Virus record (IMG/VR): IMGVR_UViG_3300036795_000437 | Location: 1-47,480 of that record | Strand: one strand, 5' to 3' | Length of the DNA: 47,480 nt | Source of the DNA: a virus | Shown here: in pieces, positions 2,067 to 41,680 of the stretch | Position numbering within the stretch: position 1 is the stretch's first letter | Layout of the letters: each line of letters starts with the position of its first letter | Translations under genes and position numbers: made by a program | The notes under the pieces: model-generated | What the model saw: only the letters and a program-made list of their open reading frames with translations | What the model was told of the DNA's origin: nothing | Database searches by the model: none

Positions 2067-2501
2067 ATGAAAAGGTTCGTCACGCAGATCGTTGTGGGCG
2101 TCGGGCTCGTCTGGTTTTGGAATGCCGGCGCGCTTGCGCGGGTGAAGACGCCGCCTTGCCCGTACTCCTCCTCCGCGCGCGACTGGTGCGAGAAGCTCCA
2201 AACTTGGATGGATCGAGCAGCTGAGGCGGTCTATGCCTCAGAACTCGCCGCGCGTCATTGCCCGAATTTGCAGCTGAATGTTCAATTAATTGTGCAAACA
2301 ATCGCTGAGTACGGAGGATTCATCAGCGATGAATATTATGGTGACGTCCGCGAAAAAATTGAAGATGGCTTCTTCCGGAATGATCCTTTGCCAGCGTGTC
2401 AAAAGGCATATCGCCTTTATGGTCCTGCTGGCGGGATGCCGATTTTAGTTCGCGGAGTTTTGGCGACAGGCTTCATCCGAAAACTGCCGACCTACCCCTA
2501 A
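2067..2501 (+). CDS. Exported small protein, possible lysogenic-conversion gene
   Basis: A 144-residue protein starting MKRFVTQIVVGVG at 2067. This start gives a clean signal peptide (Lys/Arg, hydrophobic core, AGALA cleavage region near residues 20-24) and has GGGGAAGA before it. The mature part has several cysteines (near PCPYSSS, DWCEK, RHCPN and PACQK) that could form disulphides. I do not recognise a family. It lies alone between the integrase operon and the repressor, on the opposite strand to both, and its DNA is more AT-rich than the neighbourhood. This is typical of a moron gene expressed in the lysogen. Its stop codon overlaps that of the convergent repressor gene by four bases. Confidence 0.55.
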   Translation: MKRFVTQIVVGVGLVWFWNAGALARVKTPPCPYSSSARDWCEKLQTWMDRAAEAVYASELAARHCPNLQLNVQLIVQTIAEYGGFISDEYYGDVREKIEDGFFRNDPLPACQKAYRLYGPAGGMPILVRGVLATGFIRKLPTYP

Positions 2502-3211
2502 TGCGAGGCCGTACCGCGGGCGTCTTTCGCCAGGCGGCGTGCGGCGACTCCCGGGACGAACGCTGTCACTAGCGCCGCCGCCTTCACCCGCATATCGCGC
2601 ATCGTTTCGACCGCAGGGTTAGCGCTTTCAAGGTTGTACAGTCCTCGCTTAGAGCCGGGATAAGGTACTTTGACGACTGCGTGACCGCTCTCCAGCCAGA
2701 GAACGCACGGTTGGCCTATCATGTCTGGGGTCAACCCTCCGCTGCGCTTGTCGTAATAGACGAGCCACCCGTCACTCGCGATCGGTCGCATAGAGTTACC
2801 CTGTACTTCGACTGCTACCATCGATTCCGTCCAGCCAGGCGGACGCTCTGCCTCTCCTAGCGGTTCCTGCGCGGCCGAAAATTCAATCGATCCCTCAGGC
2901 CCCGCTCCAACGCGTCCGACAATTGGGACGTAGGCCTCCGACCGTCTCAGCTTGGAAATCCGTGACTGTTCGGCCGAGGTTGGAGCGCCCTCGCCGCGCA
3001 TAAGCCAATCGAACGAGACTCGGAAAAAGGTGGCGTAGCGCTCGCCCGCATTGACGGTGATCCCGCGCGACCCATTCTCGTGGCCGAAATAGGTCGGTTT
3101 ACTGATCGCCATCGCTTCGGCTGCCGCGGCAGCAGATTCGTGTCCTGCTCTTCGCCTCGCCCAGACAAGGCGTTCGTGGGGAGCGGCCAGCTGGCGCCAT
3201 TCCTTGTGCAT
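2498..3211 (-). CDS. CI-type phage repressor, S24 (LexA-like) peptidase
   Basis: A 237-residue repressor with an N-terminal HTH (about residues 12-72: RLVWARRRAGHESAAAAAE, then ISKPTYFGHENG) and a C-terminal S24 peptidase domain. The catalytic serine is Ser140 in GNSMRP and the lysine is Lys181 in HAVVKVPY. An Ala-Gly pair at 103-104 (VGAGPEG) is a likely self-cleavage site, so induction by RecA/SOS is expected. The start could instead be ATG 3223, four codons upstream, which overlaps operator O1. It is transcribed divergently from the Cro-like gene at 3284 with four palindromes between them. Lambda-like control of lysogeny is a strong inference. Confidence 0.9.
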   Translation of the reverse strand: MHKEWRQLAAPHERLVWARRRAGHESAAAAAEAMAISKPTYFGHENGSRGITVNAGERYATFFRVSFDWLMRGEGAPTSAEQSRISKLRRSEAYVPIVGRVGAGPEGSIEFSAAQEPLGEAERPPGWTESMVAVEVQGNSMRPIASDGWLVYYDKRSGGLTPDMIGQPCVLWLESGHAVVKVPYPGSKRGLYNLESANPAVETMRDMRVKAAALVTAFVPGVAARRLAKDARGTASH

Positions 3212-3221
3212 AGCGCCGACC

Positions 3222-3285
3222 ATGCACACTGCATTTATGCATCGGGCATTGCCAGTACTATGCGACTCGCATATGCACGGTGCAT
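3222..3285. promoter_or_regulatory. Four-site operator array between repressor and Cro-like gene
   Basis: Four 13-bp palindromes: ATGCACACTGCAT (3222-3234), ATGCATCGGGCAT (3237-3249, one half-site base off), ATGCGACTCGCAT (3260-3272) and ATGCACGGTGCAT (3273-3285). Consensus is ATGCR-N3-YGCAT. Centres are at 3228, 3243, 3266 and 3279. The last site overlaps the ATG of the Cro-like gene and the first overlaps an alternative start of the repressor. The arrangement matches a lambda OR-like switch. Confidence 0.8.
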
Positions 3286-3481
3286 GGCAACCGCTCAAAT
3301 GATTCGGGAGGCGCGCGATCGGCTCAATGAGACGCAATCCGAGTTTGCGCGCCGGTTCGGTGTTGACCAGAGCACTATTCATCGGTGGGAGACATCCGGA
3401 CCGCCTCCGAAGGGAGCGACCGCTCTGCTGATTGACCGGGTTTTTGCGGAATTACCGGGGCCGGTTGGAGCCGCGCGATGA
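3284..3481 (+). CDS. Cro-like HTH regulator
   Basis: A 65-residue protein starting MATAQMIREARDRLNETQ. It has a compact helix-turn-helix: RLNETQSEFARRFGVDQST followed by the recognition helix and IHRWETSGPPP. The size and the position directly across the operator array from the repressor point to a Cro-type switch protein for the lytic programme. The start at 3284 gives only the HTH domain, and its ATG is part of the fourth operator, so a leaderless transcript is possible. The next gene begins about 65 bp downstream on the same strand. Confidence 0.8.
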   Translation: MATAQMIREARDRLNETQSEFARRFGVDQSTIHRWETSGPPPKGATALLIDRVFAELPGPVGAAR

Positions 3482-5284: not shown

Positions 5285-5634
5285 GACCGGAAATGCCTTC
5301 GCTGTTGTCCGACGTGGTCGGCGCCGCCGAGCGAACGATCGACCGCGTCACCGGCGACGTCCGCCGGATCGATGGGCTGGAGCAGCTGTTCGAGCGCGTG
5401 ACCGCAGCCTGCGACTGGGCGACCGACGAACCGCGTCGGTTGTGCGCCGAGCACACCAAGCTGCTGGTGCAGCAGCTGCGGGCGATCGAGCGCAAGGGGC
5501 CGCTGTCCGATCCGCATGAGACGTCGTGGCGCGCCACCATCGTTGCGGCGCTGTTGCCATACGTGCGCGCCGATCTCAGCGCCGCGCTTGACGTGACGGC
5601 GAATGCCGGGCGTGGGGAAAGGGCGGCATCATGA
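5281..5634 (+). CDS. Hypothetical early protein
   Basis: A 117-residue, mostly helical protein (MRPEMPSLLSDVVGAAERT...) with many charged residues and one Cys-rich spot (ACDWATDEPRRLCAEHT). No family is recognised. It is coupled by ATGA overlaps to the membrane protein upstream and to the ParB/methyltransferase fusion downstream, which supports it as a real gene in the early operon. Confidence 0.5.
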   Translation: MRPEMPSLLSDVVGAAERTIDRVTGDVRRIDGLEQLFERVTAACDWATDEPRRLCAEHTKLLVQQLRAIERKGPLSDPHETSWRATIVAALLPYVRADLSAALDVTANAGRGERAAS

Positions 5635-7982
5635 AGAAGCGCGTGACGAAGAAGGCAGCCGCTCCGGTCAAGAGGCCGGCGAAGAAGCCGGCGAAGAAGC
5701 TGCAAACCCATCGCACGCTGAAGTCGGCGGCGCAGGCGATCGAGCGCAAGGCCGCACCAAAGGCTGACGACAAGGCCAGGGCAACCGGACCGAATACCGG
5801 CGCGCCGACAGTGACACCGAAGGGCTTCCCGCCGCGTCCGGCGGGCACGCGCTGGCCGGCGGAGATCCTCGTCGGCAAGCGCTTCCGCACGGAGTACGGC
5901 GACCTCGACGATCTGGCGCGGTCGATCGACGATCGCGGCGGCCTGCTGTCGCGCATCGCGATCACGCCGGACGGCAAGCTGATCGCCGGCGAGCGTCGGC
6001 TCAAGGCGTGGCCGCGCACGAAAACATTCAAGGACTACCCAATCCCCGTTCATGTGATGACGCCGGACTCGATCATTGCCGGCGAGTGGGACGAGAACGC
6101 AAAGCGCAAGGATTTCTCGCCGACCGAGCAGGTCGCCATCCTGCGCGAGATCGAGCGGCAACTCGGCAAGCTGGCCAAGGCGCGCATGACGGCCGGCACG
6201 GAGGCCGCGCCCGAAGAGCGGGGCCGCGCGCGGGATCTCGCGGCGCGCGCCGCCGGCGGCAAACGTCGCACCATCGAGAAGGCTGCGGCCGTCGTCGACG
6301 CGGCCGAAGCGGAGCCGGAGAAATACGGCAAGCTGCAATCCGACATGGACCGCACCGGCAAGGTCGACGGTCCGTTCAAGCGGCTGACGGTGATGAAGCA
6401 GACGGAGGCGCTGCGCGCCGCGCCGCCGCCGCTGCCGATGAACGGGCCCTACAAGACATTGCTGATCGACTTCCCGGTGCCGGGCGAGACCGACAAGGAC
6501 CAGGAGGCGATCGACGCCGCCGGCCGCTCGTTCCGCGGCTATCCGGAAATGGCGGTCGAGAGCTGCATCGCCTTCGCGGCCGACAGGATCCTTCCGATCT
6601 GCGATCCCGACTGCTCGATCTGGCTGACCTTCCCGAACTATCACATCGTCGAAGGCGCGGCGCATCGCATCGCCGACGCGTTCGCCGGCTTCAAGCGCGT
6701 GACGATGTTGACCTGGGAGAAGGACAAGATCGGCCGCGGCCAGGTGCTGCGCGACAAGACCGAGCACGCGATCCTGATCACGCGCGGCAAACCGGTCTTC
6801 AACGTGTTCGGCGAGGATCCGCCGACGACGATGCTCAAGGCGGTGCGGCGCGAGAATTCGCGCAAGCCGGACGAGCTCTATGCGCTGGTCGAGCGCGTGA
6901 CGCCGGCACCGCGCTACGCCGAGATCTTCTCGCGCGGCGGTCGCAGTGCGCTGTGGGACTGTCATGGCGACGAAGTCGGAAAGTTTGTGCCGCATCAGGG
7001 CGAAGCCCGTCTTGACGAAAATGCCGCGCACGCGGCGGAGCAGGCGCGGCAGGCCGATGAAGCCATGCGGCGCGAGCTCGCCGCGCTCGAGTCGGTCGCC
7101 GCCGGCGGCGTGATCGAAGACGCCGAGATGCGCGCGCTGCTCGGCAAGAACAAGTGGATCAAGGGCCGCAAGCCGAAGCTGACCGGAGTCGGCGAGGCAC
7201 GGCGTGTGGCGCTTCTCGGCCAACTTTCGCAGCCCGCTGCCGAAGAGGCGAAGACGGACGAACCGAAGCAGGTCCGACGCACACTGCCTGGCCGCGACGC
7301 CGAACTGATCGCCTTCGCCGAGGCCTGCGGGCATGTCGTCAGCATGACGATCGACTGGCAGGGCAACGATGGTACCGGCGAGCACGTCGGCACCTGCGCC
7401 TGCGGGTGGATTCATAGGGAACCGCGGCACGATAAGGTCGGCGATGCCTCCGATCCGGCGATCGTCGAGCAGCGCCGCGCGTCGGCCCGCGCAATGGATG
7501 ATGCGATCACCGCGCACTGGAAGGACGAGCGGGTGAAGTCGCCGGTCACCGAAGTCATGCTCGAGGACTGGCAAATTCTCACCGCGGTGCAGGCGGGGCG
7601 CGACGGCGGTCTCGGTGTCGCTGCCCGCATGCGTGGGGGGCTGATCAAACGCAAGCGCATTGGCGGCGGCTACGTCTTGACCGAGGCCGGCGAGCAGATG
7701 CTGCGCGGCCTCGACACCGCGATCGATAAGGCGCGAGCGAAGCCGCAGGGCGCGGTGCCCGCGGACGATCTGTTCAACGAGACGCCGGCGGCAGCGCCGG
7801 CCAGCGACGCGCAGCCGGCCGCGGACGAACCGGCGGCTGCGGGCGGCGAGGGGAGCGGAGCCTCACATGCGACCGCTCCTCTCGCCGAAGCGACGGCGGT
7901 TCCGCCTGCGGAGGACGACCTCGACATTCCCACATTCTTGCGGCGTGCGCAGCCGACCCCTCCGGTGGAGGTCGCGGAATGA
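5631..7982 (+). CDS. ParB-like nuclease / MT-A70-like fusion protein
   Basis: A 783-residue multidomain protein. Residues 1-60 are a Lys/Ala-rich basic tail. Residues ~72-160 form a ParB/sulfiredoxin-like domain (DLDDLARSIDDRGGLL, LIAGERRLKAW). Residues ~270-470 resemble an MT-A70 adenine methyltransferase (WEKDKIGRGQVLRDKTEHAI, SRKPDELYALVERV, PRYAEIFSR). The catalytic motif normally read as DPPW is DFPV here (Asp280), so methylation activity is doubtful or altered. Residues ~560-640 contain a CACGW motif. Residues ~645-690 look like a winged helix (GLIKRKRIGGGYVLTEAG), followed by a disordered Ala/Pro tail. ParB-MT-A70 fusions are seen in phages as DNA-modification proteins. Confidence 0.75.
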   Translation: MKKRVTKKAAAPVKRPAKKPAKKLQTHRTLKSAAQAIERKAAPKADDKARATGPNTGAPTVTPKGFPPRPAGTRWPAEILVGKRFRTEYGDLDDLARSIDDRGGLLSRIAITPDGKLIAGERRLKAWPRTKTFKDYPIPVHVMTPDSIIAGEWDENAKRKDFSPTEQVAILREIERQLGKLAKARMTAGTEAAPEERGRARDLAARAAGGKRRTIEKAAAVVDAAEAEPEKYGKLQSDMDRTGKVDGPFKRLTVMKQTEALRAAPPPLPMNGPYKTLLIDFPVPGETDKDQEAIDAAGRSFRGYPEMAVESCIAFAADRILPICDPDCSIWLTFPNYHIVEGAAHRIADAFAGFKRVTMLTWEKDKIGRGQVLRDKTEHAILITRGKPVFNVFGEDPPTTMLKAVRRENSRKPDELYALVERVTPAPRYAEIFSRGGRSALWDCHGDEVGKFVPHQGEARLDENAAHAAEQARQADEAMRRELAALESVAAGGVIEDAEMRALLGKNKWIKGRKPKLTGVGEARRVALLGQLSQPAAEEAKTDEPKQVRRTLPGRDAELIAFAEACGHVVSMTIDWQGNDGTGEHVGTCACGWIHREPRHDKVGDASDPAIVEQRRASARAMDDAITAHWKDERVKSPVTEVMLEDWQILTAVQAGRDGGLGVAARMRGGLIKRKRIGGGYVLTEAGEQMLRGLDTAIDKARAKPQGAVPADDLFNETPAAAPASDAQPAADEPAAAGGEGSGASHATAPLAEATAVPPAEDDLDIPTFLRRAQPTPPVEVAE

Positions 7983-9863: not shown

Positions 9864-10742
9864 ATGAGCGATACGAAGACAATTGTGAAAGTGGACACCG
9901 GCCGACCGGCGCTTGTCGTGACCGGCGCCAGTGAGATCTCCATTCGCGGCGGCACCGCGTTCAACGGCGTCAGCTTCCAGACCGACACTCCCGTCGTCAT
10001 CGATGTGCCGCTGGAGCCAGGCGGGGATTACGGCGTCATCGTCAATGAAGGCGCGGTGGGCTATGCGCGCCTGCAGAGCGGCGCGCTCGGTGCCGACGTG
10101 CTCGGCGGCTTCCACTTCGCACCCGGCGGCAATGCCGGTGCTCGCCAGGGCGGCGACGCGGCACCGGCGATCAACCCGCATTCGCTGTGGGACGTGGCCT
10201 TCCGGCCGGCATGTCCGGATCCACGCGGCATGGCGTTGGTCGACGCGTCGTGCATGCGCTTCTGGTGCGACATCTATCTCACCAATATCGACCACCTTGC
10301 GGCAGGCACCAGCCGCCTCGGCCTCACGATCGCCGATGGCGAGGATCTGCCGAACGATCCGACTGGCGGTCGCTTCAGGCGTTTCGATTACGCCGCAGCG
10401 TGCGCGGTGATGAAGCACCACGGCAAAGGGCTGCTCGGTATCGACGAGTTCTTCGCCGCCGCCTTCGGCGTGACGGAGAAGAGTTCGGCCGATGACGAGC
10501 CCTCGGTGACGCAGCTCGATGCGTCGCGCACGAGCAAGTGGGGGATCATCCAGGCGACCGGAAACATGTGGATCTGGGGCCACGACGGCGATCCCGACGA
10601 GCCGCGTCCCTCCCTCTTTGGCGGCGCGTGGCTCTACGGCTCGGGCGCGGGCTCGCGCTGCGCGGACCTCGGCGACTGGCCGGAGCGCTCGGGCGGCGGC
10701 GTGGGTGCGCGCGGGCGCAGTGACCACCTGCAGCTTGATTAG
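9864..10742 (+). CDS. DGR target: Mtd-like variable C-type lectin-fold protein
   Basis: A 292-residue protein whose C-terminal ~175 residues resemble the major tropism determinant (Mtd) of Bordetella phage BPP-1. Features in order are LWDVAFRPACPDPRGMALV, FWCDIYLTNIDHL, an MKHHGKGLLGIDEFFAAAFG stretch, KWGIIQATGNMWIWGHD, SLFGGAW and the closing GARGRSDHLQLD. In Mtd this region is a C-type lectin fold that displays the hypervariable residues for receptor binding. Residues ~247-287 are encoded by the variable repeat. The N-terminal ~110 residues are a short beta-rich part, so the protein is shorter than Mtd as I recall it (about 380 residues). GAAGGAG precedes the ATG. The likely role is a receptor-binding tip or another displayed binder. 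Its place in the particle is not shown by the sequence. Confidence 0.9.
   Translation: MSDTKTIVKVDTGRPALVVTGASEISIRGGTAFNGVSFQTDTPVVIDVPLEPGGDYGVIVNEGAVGYARLQSGALGADVLGGFHFAPGGNAGARQGGDAAPAINPHSLWDVAFRPACPDPRGMALVDASCMRFWCDIYLTNIDHLAAGTSRLGLTIADGEDLPNDPTGGRFRRFDYAAACAVMKHHGKGLLGIDEFFAAAFGVTEKSSADDEPSVTQLDASRTSKWGIIQATGNMWIWGHDGDPDEPRPSLFGGAWLYGSGAGSRCADLGDWPERSGGGVGARGRSDHLQLD
10601..10724 (+). repeat. DGR variable repeat (VR)
   Basis: 124 bp, 82% of it identical to the core of the template repeat 563 bp downstream. There are 15 differences, of which 14 fall at template adenines (11 A to G, 2 A to C, 1 A to T). The exception is G10626 opposite T11189. The first 25 bp and the last ~25 bp (ending GGGCGCAGTGAC) are identical to TR. 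The GC-rich 3' end is the expected site where target-primed cDNA synthesis begins. It encodes residues ~247-287 of the Mtd-like protein. Confidence 0.95.
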
Positions 10743-10761
10743 CCGCCGCGACAGCGGCGGC
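10742..10761. promoter_or_regulatory. DGR target-recognition hairpin downstream of VR
   Basis: GCCGCCGC (10742-10749) pairs perfectly with GCGGCGGC (10754-10761) around the tetraloop GACA. An 8-bp GC stem with a GRNA-type 4-base loop just after the variable repeat is the cruciform element known to promote target recognition in the BPP-1 element. It starts at the last base of the target gene's TAG, 17 bases after VR. Confidence 0.8.
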
Positions 10762-10778
10762 GCTGAGGACACGCCACC

Positions 10779-11159
10779 ATGACGATCGTCAGGGACGAAA
10801 ATCGAAGTCTCGATGCCCTGGCGATCGTCGAAAAGTACGAGGCCTTCGTGCATTACGTCTATCCGATCGTCCAACGCAGTCCGCGACATCACGGCGTCCT
10901 TCGGGACGCCGTCACGGCGGAGCTGTTCGCGCCGATCGGCGAACTCTACCACGCAGCGAAGTCGAGGCAGATGTCGCGGCTCTACGCCATCGACGCCCGC
11001 TTCGCGACGCTGCGCTCCTATCTGCGCTTCCTTGTCAGAGCCGACGTGCGGATCGTGAACGGCAGGCAGCACGCGCATGCGCTCGCGCTGCTGGCCGAGC
11101 CCGGCCGCATGCTCGGAGCATGGCAACGGAAGCTCAGAGAAGGGCAGGCGGGGAAATGA
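10779..11159 (+). CDS. avd: DGR accessory variability determinant
   Basis: A 126-residue basic, all-helical protein with the size and pattern of Avd: SLDALAIVEKYEAFVHYVYP, the RSPRHHGVLRDAVT segment, SRLYAIDARFATLRSYLRFL, and a final helix GRMLGAWQRKL. In other DGRs Avd forms a pentameric four-helix-bundle barrel that binds the reverse transcriptase and the template RNA and is required for mutagenic cDNA synthesis. It lies between the target gene and TR, the classical order. Its TGA lies just before TR. Confidence 0.88.
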   Translation: MTIVRDENRSLDALAIVEKYEAFVHYVYPIVQRSPRHHGVLRDAVTAELFAPIGELYHAAKSRQMSRLYAIDARFATLRSYLRFLVRADVRIVNGRQHAHALALLAEPGRMLGAWQRKLREGQAGK

Positions 11160-11484
11160 TGCGGCCGCGTCCCTCCCTCTTTGGCGGCTCGTGGATCAAC
11201 GGCTCGAACGCGGGCTCGCGCTACGCGAACCTCGACAACTGGCCGGAGAACTCGGACGACAACGTGGGTGCGCGCGGGCGCAGTGACGACCGGATTTTGA
11301 CGCGGCGGCGATCACGGTCCCGCCGGTCCGACACGCCCGGCCGCGCATGCGGCTCGGGTCGGTGGTCAGCCCGCCGGTCCTGCTTCGGCAAACACACATC
11401 CCGGTCCGGCAGAGCGGGGCGTAGCGGACGGATCCATGGATCTGCGCCGTCGAGACCCGCGGCCGGCACACTTTCTGGAATGCC
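11160..11484 (+). ncRNA. DGR template RNA and spacer (no protein)
   Basis: The segment from the end of avd to the RT start holds TR and a 197-base GC-rich spacer. In characterised DGRs an RNA spanning the avd end, TR and this spacer is the template, and the spacer primes cDNA synthesis and binds Avd/RT. The spacer has CCGGTCC repeats that may fold. The open frame running through it is a by-product of TR resembling the target gene. Confidence 0.65.
11164..11287 (+). repeat. DGR template repeat (TR)
   Basis: 124 bp matching the variable repeat. It contains 20 adenines, 18 in the core and two near the 3' end. All core adenines lie in codons of the form AAC, GAC, TAC, ATC or GAG when read in the target frame. 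Because of this, no single or multiple adenine substitution can create a stop codon. Fourteen of the 18 core adenines differ in the current VR. Its first bases follow the avd stop codon directly. Confidence 0.95.
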
Positions 11485-12468
11485 ATGACCAAGCGATATC
11501 GCAACCTGATCGGACACATCACCGCGCCGGAGACGCTGGCGTGCGCCTACCGGCTGACGTCGCGCGGAAAGCGGCTGACCGCCGGCTATCTCGACTTCAA
11601 GGAATACGACGCGCTGAATCTCGCACAGCTCGGAGGTGAGATGCGGTCCGGCGCATATCGCGCCGGCGCGGCCCACGAGTTCATGATCTTCGATCCGAAG
11701 CAGCGATTGATCTCGGCGCTGCCGTTTCGCGACCGCGTCGCGCAGCAGGCGCTCTGTCTCATCATCGGGCCATTATTCGATCGCGCGCTCCTGCCTCGCG
11801 CCTTCGCCTGCCGGCCGGGCAAGGGCACGCATGCCGGTGCGGTCGCGCTGCAGAGCGATCTGCGGCGCCTCGGGCGCAGCGGTGCGGTCTATGCGCTCAA
11901 GACGGATTTCTCGCGCTATTTCGCGTCGATCGAGCGTGGCGCGCTGTGGCGATTGATCGAGGCCAAGATCAGCTGCCGCGCGACGCTGGGGTTGATCGAG
12001 GCCATGCTGCCGCGCGCGGGGATCGGCCTGCCGATCGGCAGCCTCACATCCCAGATCTTCGCCAACGTCTACACGGGCGCGACGCTCGATCGGCACCTGC
12101 AGCAGACCCTCGGAGAGGACTACTGGTACCGCTACATGGACGACATCGTCGTGCTCGGGCACGACAGCGCGCACCTGCGCCGGCTGAAGACGAGCGTCGA
12201 AGACTTCTCGCGCGACGCGCTCGGTCTGCGCTTCTCGAAGTGGTCGGTGCAGCCCGCGAGCCGCGGCATCAATTTCCTCGGCTATCGCATCTGGTCGACG
12301 CATAAGCTTCTGCGCCGCGACAGCGTTGTCCGCGCCCGGCGCAAGATCGCCGCTTTCCGCGCCGCCGGCGACGTCGCGCGGTTGAGGACGTTTCTTGCGG
12401 CGTGGCTCGGTCACGCGCGCTGGGCTGATAGCGCCAACCTGATCCGTAGCCTCGAGGTCGGCGCATGA
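11485..12468 (+). CDS. DGR reverse transcriptase
   Basis: A 327-residue reverse transcriptase. It shows the catalytic aspartate Asp141 in KTDFSRYFASI, the DGR-type motif 4 GLPIGSLTSQ (residues 181-190, where most other RTs have QG) and the catalytic YMDD box (residues 217-220), then GINFLGYRIW and a basic thumb. The protein makes adenine-mutagenised cDNA from TR RNA that replaces VR. The length is typical for DGR RTs and no extra domain is fused. Its TGA overlaps the ATG of the primase gene, so RT and replication proteins are translationally coupled, which is unusual. Confidence 0.95.
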   Translation: MTKRYRNLIGHITAPETLACAYRLTSRGKRLTAGYLDFKEYDALNLAQLGGEMRSGAYRAGAAHEFMIFDPKQRLISALPFRDRVAQQALCLIIGPLFDRALLPRAFACRPGKGTHAGAVALQSDLRRLGRSGAVYALKTDFSRYFASIERGALWRLIEAKISCRATLGLIEAMLPRAGIGLPIGSLTSQIFANVYTGATLDRHLQQTLGEDYWYRYMDDIVVLGHDSAHLRRLKTSVEDFSRDALGLRFSKWSVQPASRGINFLGYRIWSTHKLLRRDSVVRARRKIAAFRAAGDVARLRTFLAAWLGHARWADSANLIRSLEVGA

Positions 12469-13712
12469 AGTTCACTCACGCCGATATCGATGCGATCAAG
12501 CGCGACAACCCGGTGACGAAAATCGCCGGCGCCGTCGTCGCGCTGCGGGCGCAGCGGCAGGGCGCGTTCCCATTCTCCGGCCCGTGCCCGCTGCATTCGC
12601 CGGATCCGCAGGCGCGGGACTCGACGTCGTTCGCCTGCAGCGACGAGGCATGGGTGTGCACCAGCTGCGGCGGCGGCGACGTCGTCGACCTGGTCGCGCG
12701 CATGAACGGGCTCGATCCGAAGAAGGACTTCCGCAAGGCGCTCGAACTGCTGACCGGCGGCAGAGCTGCGCCCCAGCTGTCGGCCGACGAGGCCCGGGCG
12801 CTTGAGGAGGCGCGCACCGAGGAGGCGGCGGCCCGGTACGAGGCCCAGAACGAATATCGCGACCGCGAGCAGCGCGTCGCCTGGGACCTCTATTACAAAT
12901 ACGGCATGCGCCTGTCGCATCCGCGGGCCTCGATCGCGCGGGACTATCTGGGCGCGTGCCGCGGCTTGCGTCTGCCCGACACGCTGTGGCTGCGCTTCAA
13001 TCCAGAGGCGCGCTATTACGTCCCCGACCGGCCGAAGGCGCGCGAGATCCATCGCGGCCCGGCGCTGCTCGCGCCGATCCAGCGCGGCGGACGCTTCTGC
13101 GGCGTGCACCAGACCTTCATCGATCTTAAGCAGCCGAACGGCAAGGCGGTCATCGTCGATCCGAAGACGTCGACGGCGATGCAGGCGAAGAAAGTGCGCG
13201 GCTCGATGAAGGGCGGCCACATCGACATGGTCGGGACCGGCTCATTCGATAAAGACGGCCGCGAACGGCCTGCTGGCCCGCGCGCGCTGATCCTCGGCGA
13301 GGGTATCGAGAAAGTCGGCGCCGTGATGAGCGCGATGCTCGAGGACGGCCGCGACGTCGCCGGCGTCGCATTCTGGAGCGCCATGAACCTCGGCAACATG
13401 GGCGGCAAGGCGCTGCGCAACGTGCCGCATCCGACGCTGAAGGGCGCGACCGGCAGGCCGCTGCGGCCGGGCGGCCCGGAGCCCGACATGGACACGCCGG
13501 CGATCGAGATCCCGGATTCCGTCGAGCGCCTGGTGCTGCTCGGCGACCGCACCTCCGATCCATTCGAAACCGAGTGTGTCATGGCGCGCGCGGCCGCGCG
13601 TTACGCGGAAGCCCGGCGGCTAAAGGGCGAAGCCCGTCTTTCGCTTGAAGTCGTGTGCGCCTGGGGGCCGGACGGCAAGGACTTCGACGACGTTCTGAGG
13701 GAGGCGGCGTGA
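12465..13712 (+). CDS. DNA primase-like protein (CHC2 zinc finger, Toprim)
   Basis: A 415-residue protein. The N-terminus carries a CHC2-type zinc finger with Cys41, His44, Cys65 and Cys68 (GPCPLHSPD, WVCTSCGGG). The middle has an RNA-polymerase-like primase region (MRLSHPRASIARDYLGA...FNPEARYYV). Residues ~270-415 form a Toprim domain with ALILGEGIEKVGAVMSAM (catalytic Glu) and an acidic LLGDRTSDP segment. It synthesises RNA primers for phage DNA replication, together with the SF3 helicase at 16110. It overlaps RT upstream (ATGA) and the methyltransferase downstream (GTGA). Confidence 0.88.
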   Translation: MKFTHADIDAIKRDNPVTKIAGAVVALRAQRQGAFPFSGPCPLHSPDPQARDSTSFACSDEAWVCTSCGGGDVVDLVARMNGLDPKKDFRKALELLTGGRAAPQLSADEARALEEARTEEAAARYEAQNEYRDREQRVAWDLYYKYGMRLSHPRASIARDYLGACRGLRLPDTLWLRFNPEARYYVPDRPKAREIHRGPALLAPIQRGGRFCGVHQTFIDLKQPNGKAVIVDPKTSTAMQAKKVRGSMKGGHIDMVGTGSFDKDGRERPAGPRALILGEGIEKVGAVMSAMLEDGRDVAGVAFWSAMNLGNMGGKALRNVPHPTLKGATGRPLRPGGPEPDMDTPAIEIPDSVERLVLLGDRTSDPFETECVMARAAARYAEARRLKGEARLSLEVVCAWGPDGKDFDDVLREAA

Positions 13713-19437: not shown

Positions 19438-19466
19438 GGGCCGTGGCATCACCACGGCCCTTTTTT
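19438..19466 (+). terminator. Rho-independent terminator 2, directly before late genes
   Basis: GGGCCGTGG (19438-19446) pairs with CCACGGCCC (19452-19460) around CATCA and is followed by TTTTTT. It is one of the strongest terminators in the window. The last T of its tract touches the ATG at 19467. Confidence 0.88.
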
Positions 19467-20216
19467 ATGATTTCCCTGCAATTCGACCTTTCGGCGCTTC
19501 GATCGGCCGCATCCGCAGTGCAAGGGGTGAGCGACGACGATATGCCGTTCGCCCTCGCCTACGCTCTGACGAAGGCGATGCAATCGGCGAAAGACGCTGA
19601 AGTCGAGACCATGCGTCAGGTGTTCGACCGGCCGACGCGATACACGCTGAATGCGCTTGCGGTCATTCCGGCGACGAAGAACGATTTGCGCGCCGTGCTG
19701 CACGTACGCGAGTTCGGCGGCACGCCCGCGTGGAAGTATCTCGGTCCCCAGATCCATGGTGGCCCGCGGCGCAAGAAGGGTTTTGAGCGCGCGCTCGAAC
19801 GCGCCGGCATTCTCCGGTCTGACGAGTTCGCCGTGCCGAGCCGGCTCGCGCCGCTGGATGGCAACGGCAACATGAAAGCCGGCATCATCACGCGCATCCT
19901 GTCCGACGTTGGCGCCAACCCTGATCCGATGTCCAACACGGCCGCTGCGCAACGGCGCAAGCGCCAATCCAAAGGCAAAGGCACCTACTTCGTGCTGCGG
20001 GATCGCGGCGGAGTACCGAACGGGATCTACTTCAGGCTTGGCTTGCGTGACATCAGGCCCATCCTGCTGTTCACCGCGCCACCGCAGTACCAACCGCGCT
20101 TTCCCTACTACGACGTTGCGCGCGCCATCGTGCCGAAGGCAGCAGCGGAACACTTCGCCGCGGGTTGGAAGCGGTACGTCATCCCCAATATGCGCCGGCG
20201 TCTGCGGGCAGCGTGA
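19467..20216 (+). CDS. Conserved-type phage protein at start of late region
   Basis: A 249-residue protein from MISLQFDLSALRSAA. The middle contains RQVFDRPTRYTLNALAV, PAWKYLGPQIHGGPRRKKGF and GNMKAGIITRILSDVGA. I recall this pattern as a widespread phage protein of unknown function that lies beside terminase genes. No ribosome site precedes ATG 19467, which follows the terminator T-run directly. GTG 19527 after AAGGG is an alternative start that would cut 20 residues. It is probably a minor virion or assembly component. Confidence 0.6.
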   Translation: MISLQFDLSALRSAASAVQGVSDDDMPFALAYALTKAMQSAKDAEVETMRQVFDRPTRYTLNALAVIPATKNDLRAVLHVREFGGTPAWKYLGPQIHGGPRRKKGFERALERAGILRSDEFAVPSRLAPLDGNGNMKAGIITRILSDVGANPDPMSNTAAAQRRKRQSKGKGTYFVLRDRGGVPNGIYFRLGLRDIRPILLFTAPPQYQPRFPYYDVARAIVPKAAAEHFAAGWKRYVIPNMRRRLRAA

Positions 20217-39730: not shown

Positions 39731-40999
39731 ATGGATTACAATCAGCCTTATGGCGGCGCGACCGGCGCGCCTTACGTCAACGGCAATCCGGCAACAGGCA
39801 CAGCTGGCTCGATCCCGCCGGCGGCGGCGATCGAATATCCGCAGCGCGAGATCGTCGACACGATCACGAAAGCGGGCCTGACGCCGAGCAATGCGGATCT
39901 CGGCCAGCTCGCCAAGGCGATCCAGAGCGGCGCCATGGTCGACGGCGCCGACACCGGGACGGCTAATGCTCTCGTCGTCACGCTGGCGCCGACGCCGAGC
40001 GACTATCCGAAATTCCTCTTCATCAAAAAGGGCGCCAACGCAAACGGCGGCGCGACGACGATCGAGATCAACACGCTGGCCGTCGTCGGCGTGAAAAGCG
40101 CCGGCGCCGATCTTTCCAGCGGCGTCTGGGGCGCGAATGCCATCGGGCTTCTTGCCTGGGATGGGGCTGCCTATGAGCTGCTCGCCGTTTCTGCGAGCAG
40201 CGGCGGCGGCAGCAGCGGGCTCAGTGGCGTCGATAACAGCTCGGCGCCGATCTTTCCGGAAATCATCGGCACGAGCTCCAATCCGAACGATTACAGCGCC
40301 AACGTCCTCGCCTTTACCGGCTCTGTCGGCCAGGTCGTCGTGAATTCCGGCAAGAGCTGGCAATGGCGCGGCCTTAAGCTCTTTTCGAGTGCGAGTTTTG
40401 CGGCGGCCGATCGCACCTTCGCGACGGCGGCCAGCAAGACCTATCATCTGCGCTGGAATGCGCCGGGCACCGGCGCCGCGACGCCGGCGGCGAGCTATCC
40501 GAACGGCCGCTTTGTGCTCAAAGACCTGGCCGATGCCGCCTATAACCCGTCGTCGCTCTCCGAGAATCATTACACTCTCGATACGCAATATGACGACATG
40601 CTCTGCGCGCGCGTCGTCACCGATGCAGGCAATAATCCGACGATCACTGCGCTCGCCAACAAAGCGCGGCTGTGCGGCAACGTCACCTTTGACAGTGGCG
40701 GCGTGACTCGCACCTCGGATGCAAACGCATTCATCGCGGTCGTTTTCAATCAGTTTACTTTGAATTGGTCGCGCAATCCGGTCGTTGCCGGCAATGGCAG
40801 CGGATATCTCGGCCAATACTACGGATCTAAGACAATGTGGGGCGGCCCTAGTTCGCCCGTTTCGGCGACCGACGGGACCGGCACCGTCTCCTACGGCTGC
40901 GACCGATATCAATATCGGCCGCTGATGCAGATCAAGGTCGCAACAGCGAGCACCTCTGGGACCGTCGCGGGCTGGTGTTCGTCAGTCTCGATCGCCTAA
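39731..40999 (+). CDS. Tail fibre protein
   Basis: A 422-residue protein. The N-terminal ~60 residues (MDYNQPYGGATGAPYVNGNP, IEYPQREIVDTITKAGLTPS, LGQLAKAIQ) are a common fibre attachment domain. A beta-rich body follows with Gly/Ser links (SASSGGGSSGLSG), and a distal domain ends VAGWCSSVSIA. It should contact the host surface. It carries no variable-repeat sequence, so the DGR does not diversify it. Confidence 0.8.
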   Translation: MDYNQPYGGATGAPYVNGNPATGTAGSIPPAAAIEYPQREIVDTITKAGLTPSNADLGQLAKAIQSGAMVDGADTGTANALVVTLAPTPSDYPKFLFIKKGANANGGATTIEINTLAVVGVKSAGADLSSGVWGANAIGLLAWDGAAYELLAVSASSGGGSSGLSGVDNSSAPIFPEIIGTSSNPNDYSANVLAFTGSVGQVVVNSGKSWQWRGLKLFSSASFAAADRTFATAASKTYHLRWNAPGTGAATPAASYPNGRFVLKDLADAAYNPSSLSENHYTLDTQYDDMLCARVVTDAGNNPTITALANKARLCGNVTFDSGGVTRTSDANAFIAVVFNQFTLNWSRNPVVAGNGSGYLGQYYGSKTMWGGPSSPVSATDGTGTVSYGCDRYQYRPLMQIKVATASTSGTVAGWCSSVSIA

Positions 41000-41026: not shown

Positions 41027-41680
41027 ATGTATATTTCTGCGAATGGCGATCTGATCGCCGCGGTTGCCTATGCCGGCGGCGGCGCCGGCGGCGTCAAGGT
41101 CCCCGATGCATTGCTCGCGGTCCCGCAAGAGCGCTGGCGGTTCGATGGCGCGACCGTCGTCGACGCCGCGACGTTCAACACGTTCTATATCGACGCAAAC
41201 GGCGTGAAGCATATCGTCGCCGCCGCCGGCTGGCAGCAGCTCGCGTGCGCTTATACTGACGTGGTCGCGCAGACAAATGGCGTCTGGGCGGTGGTTTCGG
41301 CGCTGGCGCAGGCGCAGGGGGCGAAGATCACCACGCTCAGTGCGGTCTGCGAGGCGCAGATCACCGGCGGCTTCACCTCCTCGGCGCTCGGCGCGGCGCA
41401 CACCTACCCAAGCGGGATGCCCAAAGATCAGATGAACCTCTCTGGCAGCGTGACGGCCTCGACACTGCCGTCGGGCCAGGTCGCCGGCTGGACGACGCCG
41501 TTCTGGTGCGCCGACGCGAACGGCATCTGGGCCTTCACCGATCACACAGCCGCGCAGATCCAGCAGGTTGGCGAGGATTTCAAGTCGGTTGTTGTCGCCG
41601 CACAGCAAAAGCTGATCGCTCTCACATCGCAGGTCAATGCCGCGGCATCTTTAGAGGCCGTGAACTCCGTCGACTGGTAA
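41027..41680 (+). CDS. Tail fibre-associated protein (DUF4376-like)
   Basis: A 217-residue protein. The N-terminal part (MYISANGDLIAAVAYAGGGA) is variable. The C-terminal part (KITTLSAVCEAQITGGFTSS, YPSGMPKDQMNLSGSVTAS, PFWCADANGIWAFTDHTAAQ) matches the DUF4376 pattern found in phage tail-fibre or fibre-assembly proteins. It follows the fibre gene by 27 bp. It could be a fibre chaperone or a second fibre segment. Confidence 0.65.
   Translation: MYISANGDLIAAVAYAGGGAGGVKVPDALLAVPQERWRFDGATVVDAATFNTFYIDANGVKHIVAAAGWQQLACAYTDVVAQTNGVWAVVSALAQAQGAKITTLSAVCEAQITGGFTSSALGAAHTYPSGMPKDQMNLSGSVTASTLPSGQVAGWTTPFWCADANGIWAFTDHTAAQIQQVGEDFKSVVVAAQQKLIALTSQVNAAASLEAVNSVDW

Follow-up and report, generated by a model that had tools for sequence, protein, structure and literature searches.

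Organization of the cassette

The DNA analysed here, referred to as the window, is the 47,480-base record of a temperate myovirus with a contractile tail. On its + strand it carries a diversity-generating retroelement (DGR) made up of a target gene at 9864-10742 (292 aa; phrog_11262, E 1.8e-76), whose product is a homologue of Mtd (PDB 1yu0-1yu4), an avd accessory gene at 10779-11159 (126 aa), a template repeat (TR) at 11164-11287 and a reverse transcriptase (RT) gene at 11485-12468 (327 aa). The three open reading frames, picked out in an earlier note on this DNA as a target, a 126-residue Avd-like gene and an RT with the GLPIGSLTSQ and YMDD motifs, are intact with the same boundaries. The accessory protein was recognized by phrog_3206, by the NCBIfam equivalog model NF033474 (104 bits, cutoff 80) and by Pfam bAvd (87.9 bits, cutoff 40).

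Between TR and RT, 3' of TR, the RNA family RF03022 (Phage_DGR) was detected at 11333-11467 on the + strand (Rfam, 57.8 bits, E 2.1e-7; gathering cutoff of 50 bits), and the same RNA was present in 6/6 other loci scanned from the RT clade described below. In BPP-1, the spacer RNA 3' of TR is used in priming. At the other end of the system, the variable repeat (VR) and TR diverge at about the same point as in BPP-1. The end of the target gene (10725-10742, +) reads CACCTGCAGCTTGATTAG on the VR side and GACCGGATTTTGACGCGG on the TR side, the BPP-1 VR has GTGACCACCTGATTCTTG there, and GTGACCACCTG is kept on the VR side of both phages. By its position and its resemblance to BPP-1, this end is probably an IMH-like element. 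A predicted target-site hairpin or cruciform follows 17 bp behind VR (10742-10761, +; z -3.7). Its 8-bp GC stem and GACA loop, of the GRNA type, agree with the published rule of a GC stem of 7-10 bp and a GRNA loop located 4-34 bp from VR (PMC3240598). The hairpin and the RNA, together with the missing N-terminal domain of Mtd discussed below, are features absent from the earlier note.

Adenine signature of the repeats

VR occupies 10601-10724 (+), at the 3' end of the target gene, and its repeat partner TR is 124 bases long. Both are 88% identical, with 109/124 positions shared and 15 differences, 14 of which fall on TR adenines (11 A>G, 2 A>C and 1 A>T); the only change at another base is T>G at 10626. 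No change was found in the first 25 and last 25 positions. Considering that TR contains 20 adenines, the hypergeometric probability of placing 14/15 differences on them is 5e-13. A chance repeat was ruled out by this value and by the best match of TR in 200 resampled versions of the upstream region, which reached 61/124. A search for a second VR in the 47,480-base window gave none.

Eighteen of the TR adenines lie within the core, spread over 12 codons (AAC, GAC, TAC, GAG and ATC), and in 12/12 of these codons a stop codon is unreachable by adenine mutation. This allows 4^18 = 6.9e10 variants at the DNA level and, from the codon sets, about 4.7e10 proteins. The recount thus reproduced the figures of the earlier note, which had reported the same repeat coordinates, 15/124 differences with 14 at adenines, unchanged ends of about 25 bp, 18 core adenines and about 7 x 10^10 DNA variants.

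Identity of the reverse transcriptase

The RT carries the DGR-type motif IGxxxSQ, within GLPIGSLTSQ, and YMDD. Its best relative among solved structures is the RT of BPP-1 (bRT, 8ub7, E 1.6e-112), to which it is 55% identical over 99% of the length, whereas group II-type RTs reach at best about 1e-9. The profile comparison gave the same picture, with BPP-1 bRT as the best match. An assignment of the gene to retrons, group II introns or DRTs was rejected, since the NCBIfam group II and DRT scores are far under their cutoffs.

The alternative that the repeat pair is a remnant of gene conversion or duplication, lying beside an RT of the retron or group II intron kind, would draw on the fact that some score was obtained against group II and DRT profiles. 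These low scores, the motif, the bRT match and the adenine specificity of the VR/TR differences all argue against it. In addition, the RT lies inside a tree of DGR RTs; the retron and group II enzymes, which the earlier note had named as the grouping that would contradict it, were compared by profile score. Such a remnant is, in our opinion, practically out of the question.

Natural variation among relatives

Scans of viral contigs provided 9 Mtd and 80 RT loci, and those of genomes another 37 RT loci, many of them from Hyphomicrobiales. In 93 nonredundant loci with 125 VRs, 1512/2979 TR adenines were changed compared with 48/12241 other bases, a contrast inflated by a repeat search that tolerates adenine mismatches better than others. 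Changed adenines became G in 791 cases, T in 416 and C in 305, counts in which selection, RT bias and GC-rich composition may each play a part. Two or three targets per TR were found in 31 loci.

Comparison of near-identical records with the same TR was more direct. Of the 20 sites at which the VRs of L086 and L087 differ, 19 are TR adenines, and for L089 and L090 the figures are 14 sites and 13 TR adenines. In L068 and L076, a pair within the window's own clade, 18/18 and 10/10 VR differences are at TR adenines. Since the VRs of relatives with identical TRs differ almost only at TR adenines, which is what the earlier note had expected of related phages, the DGR family is active in nature. As for the window itself, a second copy of its locus was not found. 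The search for sister phages with an exact 45-base stretch of TR matched nothing but the records of L036 and L037, neither of them a sister, and a primase-based search gave no match.

It could be argued that this particular cassette is intact in sequence but inactive at present, its TR/VR differences being old. The window is a single genome snapshot, one difference is not at an adenine (10626), and 11/14 changes lead to G. Against this, open reading frames, motifs, RNA family and hairpin are all intact, the RT is 75-80% identical to those of many relatives, and near-identical records of the clade differ at TR adenines only. Present inactivity is consequently considered quite improbable.

The cassette is, with high confidence, an intact DGR of the BPP-1 lineage, a statement that concerns its identity and mechanism and leaves display on the virion aside. 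The identification made in the earlier note is upheld by the bRT match, NF033474, RF03022 and the adenine-specific variation across relatives. The anatomy of the system and the adenine signature of past mutagenesis are present in the window. By analogy with BPP-1, the RT-Avd complex would reverse-transcribe the TR RNA with the adjoining DGR RNA, misincorporating at template adenines, and the resulting cDNA would replace VR in the mtd-like gene, with the GC-rich end common to both repeats, the IMH and the hairpin as guides. In this way, the 12 core codons could be rewritten free of stops, which would give about 7e10 DNA and 5e10 protein variants of the lectin-fold binding face. Taken alone, the retroelement is another member of a well-known family, the standard BPP-1 type.

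A Mtd homologue that begins at the beta-sandwich

Residues 7-291 of the target match residues 57-380 of Mtd (PDB 1yu0-1yu4, E 3e-43 to 5.5e-47). An AF2 model of the target (mean pLDDT 75.5, low in the VR part) aligns over residues 1-292 to Mtd 51-381 with Z 28, the VR part of this alignment having low pLDDT, and Pfam mtd_2nd scored 22.5 bits, just under its cutoff of 24.6. The TR-adenine codons occupy the same VR stretch as in BPP-1. By sequence and predicted fold, the target is a true homologue of Mtd with a beta-sandwich and a C-type-lectin domain.

The first 50 residues of Mtd, which form the beta-prism, have no counterpart in the target, and the model starts at Mtd residue 51. According to a published view, this domain presumably anchors the trimer of Mtd on the tail fibre (PMC10743442). 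The Mtd_N profile (PF18454) did not match the target, the whole record or the records of six relatives, and was positive in the controls, BPP-1 and L090; no beta-prism encoded apart from the target was found in the phage. The window gave no credible match to the BPP-1 tail proteins Bbp9-Bbp13, considered as partners. In structure, the beta-sandwich also resembles a tail fibre (8kec, Z 5.1) and a baseplate protein (9h7v, Z 3.3), similarities that were discarded as too weak.

Targets were called anchorless from start codons near the beta-sandwich and from the Mtd_N profile and not from Mtd length, since open frames extend upstream in GC-rich DNA and make the N-terminal length misleading. In two loci (L046:2033-3241 and L040:1847-3268), an anchorless Mtd continues the frame of a small protein that precedes it, with no stop between them. 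These frames are either fusions or the result of internal GTG starts; Pfam recognized the Mtd part only, and one of the small proteins is presumably MazG-like. Two records named Escherichia phage T7 (LR745707.1 and LR745708.1) have Mtd sequence under gene 17 and are presumably engineered constructs.

Position in the phage genome

The earlier note had placed the cassette in the early region of a temperate phage, and the neighbouring genes bear this out. An integrase (1-1086) and a CI/S24-like repressor (2498-3382) lie on the - strand, and a primase-like gene (12465-13712, +; phrog_510, E 2.4e-43), which is context and outside the DGR, comes directly after the RT. The + strand order is a ParB/MT-A70-like gene, the DGR, the primase, two DNA methyltransferases, a D5-type primase/helicase, terminase, head, tail and fibre. 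The first of these, at 5631-7982, encodes a 783-aa fusion of a ParB-like nuclease and an MT-A70-type methyltransferase, and has homologues in the neighbourhood of several further DGRs of the clade. Since the start of the primase overlaps the stop of the RT by 4 bp, with the following genes overlapping as well, the DGR and its target sit in the early replication operon, away from the tail genes. The phage has its own fibre (39731-40999) and a fibre-assembly-like gene (41027-41680) in the + strand run, the fibre starting about 27 kb after the end of the RT.

Another gene, at 19443-20216, matches phrog_1924 ('minor tail protein') and is located just before the terminase, apart from the tail module. 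Relatives of it occur near the DGRs of L025 and L092, and its product is a possible candidate for a partner of Mtd.

The BPP-1 DGR (mtd-avd-TR-brt; AY029185) is similar in gene order, in VR at the 3' end of the target, in the hairpin and in adenine mutagenesis, with identities to the window of 55% for RT, 40% for Avd and 38% for the Mtd target. However, BPP-1 Mtd has the N-terminal beta-prism that the window target lacks, and mtd follows tail genes in BPP-1, whereas the window, a myovirus, carries its DGR in the replication operon. Among genomes, the nearest relative is a prophage in a Rhodopseudomonas sp. RI_341 MAG (L095), which shares the synteny HYP-mtd-avd-TR-RT-primase-D5 primase, with 69% identity in the D5-type primase, 80% in RT and 53% in the primase. 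It differs in having a second Mtd target (444-1394) about 5 kb upstream of the cassette, past a ParB/methyltransferase gene, where 13/13 TR/VR differences are at TR adenines.

The tail module of L095, in contrast, has diverged, with 32% identity in the sheath and 22-36% in baseplate genes; the terminase is 27% identical. L095 has its own fibre and assembly gene, the latter 53% identical over part of its length, and its tail module is otherwise only 22-36% alike. In the opposite direction, a set of 24 records was selected by the capsid of the window; all of them also have its baseplate gene, and none contains a close RT of this type. Weak RT matches (33-38%, in two pieces) were obtained in 4/24 of them (L176, L180, L212 and L217); these pieces are in frames of 465-569 aa and perhaps belong to another type of retroelement. 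Nor was a Mtd match found in 15 records with the window's fibre family, where, as in all these comparisons, absences are soft because records may be fragments. The L095 comparison and those of capsid- and fibre-sharing records indicate that the DGR and its target move along with the replication module and not with the tail.

Two arrangements in the RT tree

In the RT tree, obtained by a quick search with SH-aLRT support only, the window falls in a mainly alphaproteobacterial-type clade of 64 entries (SH-aLRT 99), with BPP-1 outside. The Mtds of this clade begin at the beta-sandwich. Its DGRs are flanked by genes of repressor, DNA methyltransferase, ParB-like, polymerase processivity, replication-initiation and integrase families. 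The 25 commonest families on either side include no tail family, in a tally that could overlook tail genes occurring only rarely beside the anchorless DGRs. In the outer branches, which contain BPP-1, neighbours are mostly tape measure, tail, head and terminase families, and most Mtds have extra N-terminal domains. Two outer loci, L107 and L114, also have short Mtds, which implies repeated change of the N-terminal trait (3 changes). No description of this anchorless-Mtd DGR clade was found in the literature searched.

Related arrangements have been reported elsewhere. In the kappa-type prophage of Vibrio cholerae HE-09, a BPP-1-type RT, an accessory gene and Mtd were transferred together, but mtd is fused into a tail-fibre gene, the opposite of the anchorless target of the window (PMC3521204). 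The second targets of the tentaclin phages nd4 and nd12 are also lectin-fold DGR targets without a beta-prism, although they lack the beta-sandwich as well and are not recognisably Mtd (PMC10743442).

Role of the diversified protein

The earlier note had concluded that the phage rewrites its binding specificity. This is plausible in that the target is a Mtd homologue, but a role in binding a host receptor is supported only in part: the protein has no beta-prism, lies about 27 kb from the fibre genes and is placed early throughout the clade, and the sampled phages of the fibre family have no Mtd match. The somewhat favoured reading is that the product is a virion adhesin which varies what the phage binds and is added in trans to the tail. 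It shares conserved beta-sandwich and lectin domains with a protein proven to be at the tail tip, and in several clades of viral DGRs most targets carry a tail-protein annotation (PMC8144416). Points against virion display are the missing beta-prism, the lack of linkage to tail genes and the presence of the phage's own fibre and assembly gene.

The diversified protein could instead be a phage-made binder that is not part of the virion and is directed, in an infected cell or a lysogen, at targets such as variable proteins of host defence or of competing phages. It would account for the early placement, the missing anchor, the lack of an evident signal peptide and the repeated targets. The absence of Mtd_N from the window and the records of six relatives, with BPP-1 and L090 positive, is in line with it, as are the clade flanks of repressor, methyltransferase, ParB, replication and integrase genes versus the tail and head genes of the outer branches, the 4-bp overlap of RT and primase, and the 24 capsid- and baseplate-sharing phages without a close RT of this type. 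In multicellular bacteria, putative conflict systems are reported to be diversified by DGRs (PMC10907252). Apart from the domains shared with the tail-tip protein and the tail annotation of other viral targets, what speaks against a binder outside the virion is that no partner or cellular target is known. It is regarded as the less likely reading and as the main rival of the virion adhesin.

The bolder proposal that the whole clade of mainly alphaproteobacterial temperate phages moved a Mtd-type DGR from the tail module to the replication and lysogeny region and stripped the target of its anchor, so that it would now encode an early-expressed, hypervariable non-virion binder, often in two or three copies and acting, e.g., inside the cell, is doubtful. 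With the architecture and placement of its target, the clade is a variant that deserves testing. Its possible importance lies in the clade pattern, i.e., Mtd targets without an anchor, an early location and independence from the tail module, which raises the testable question of whether viral DGRs always diversify virion adhesins or whether some of them diversify a protein in or on the infected cell.
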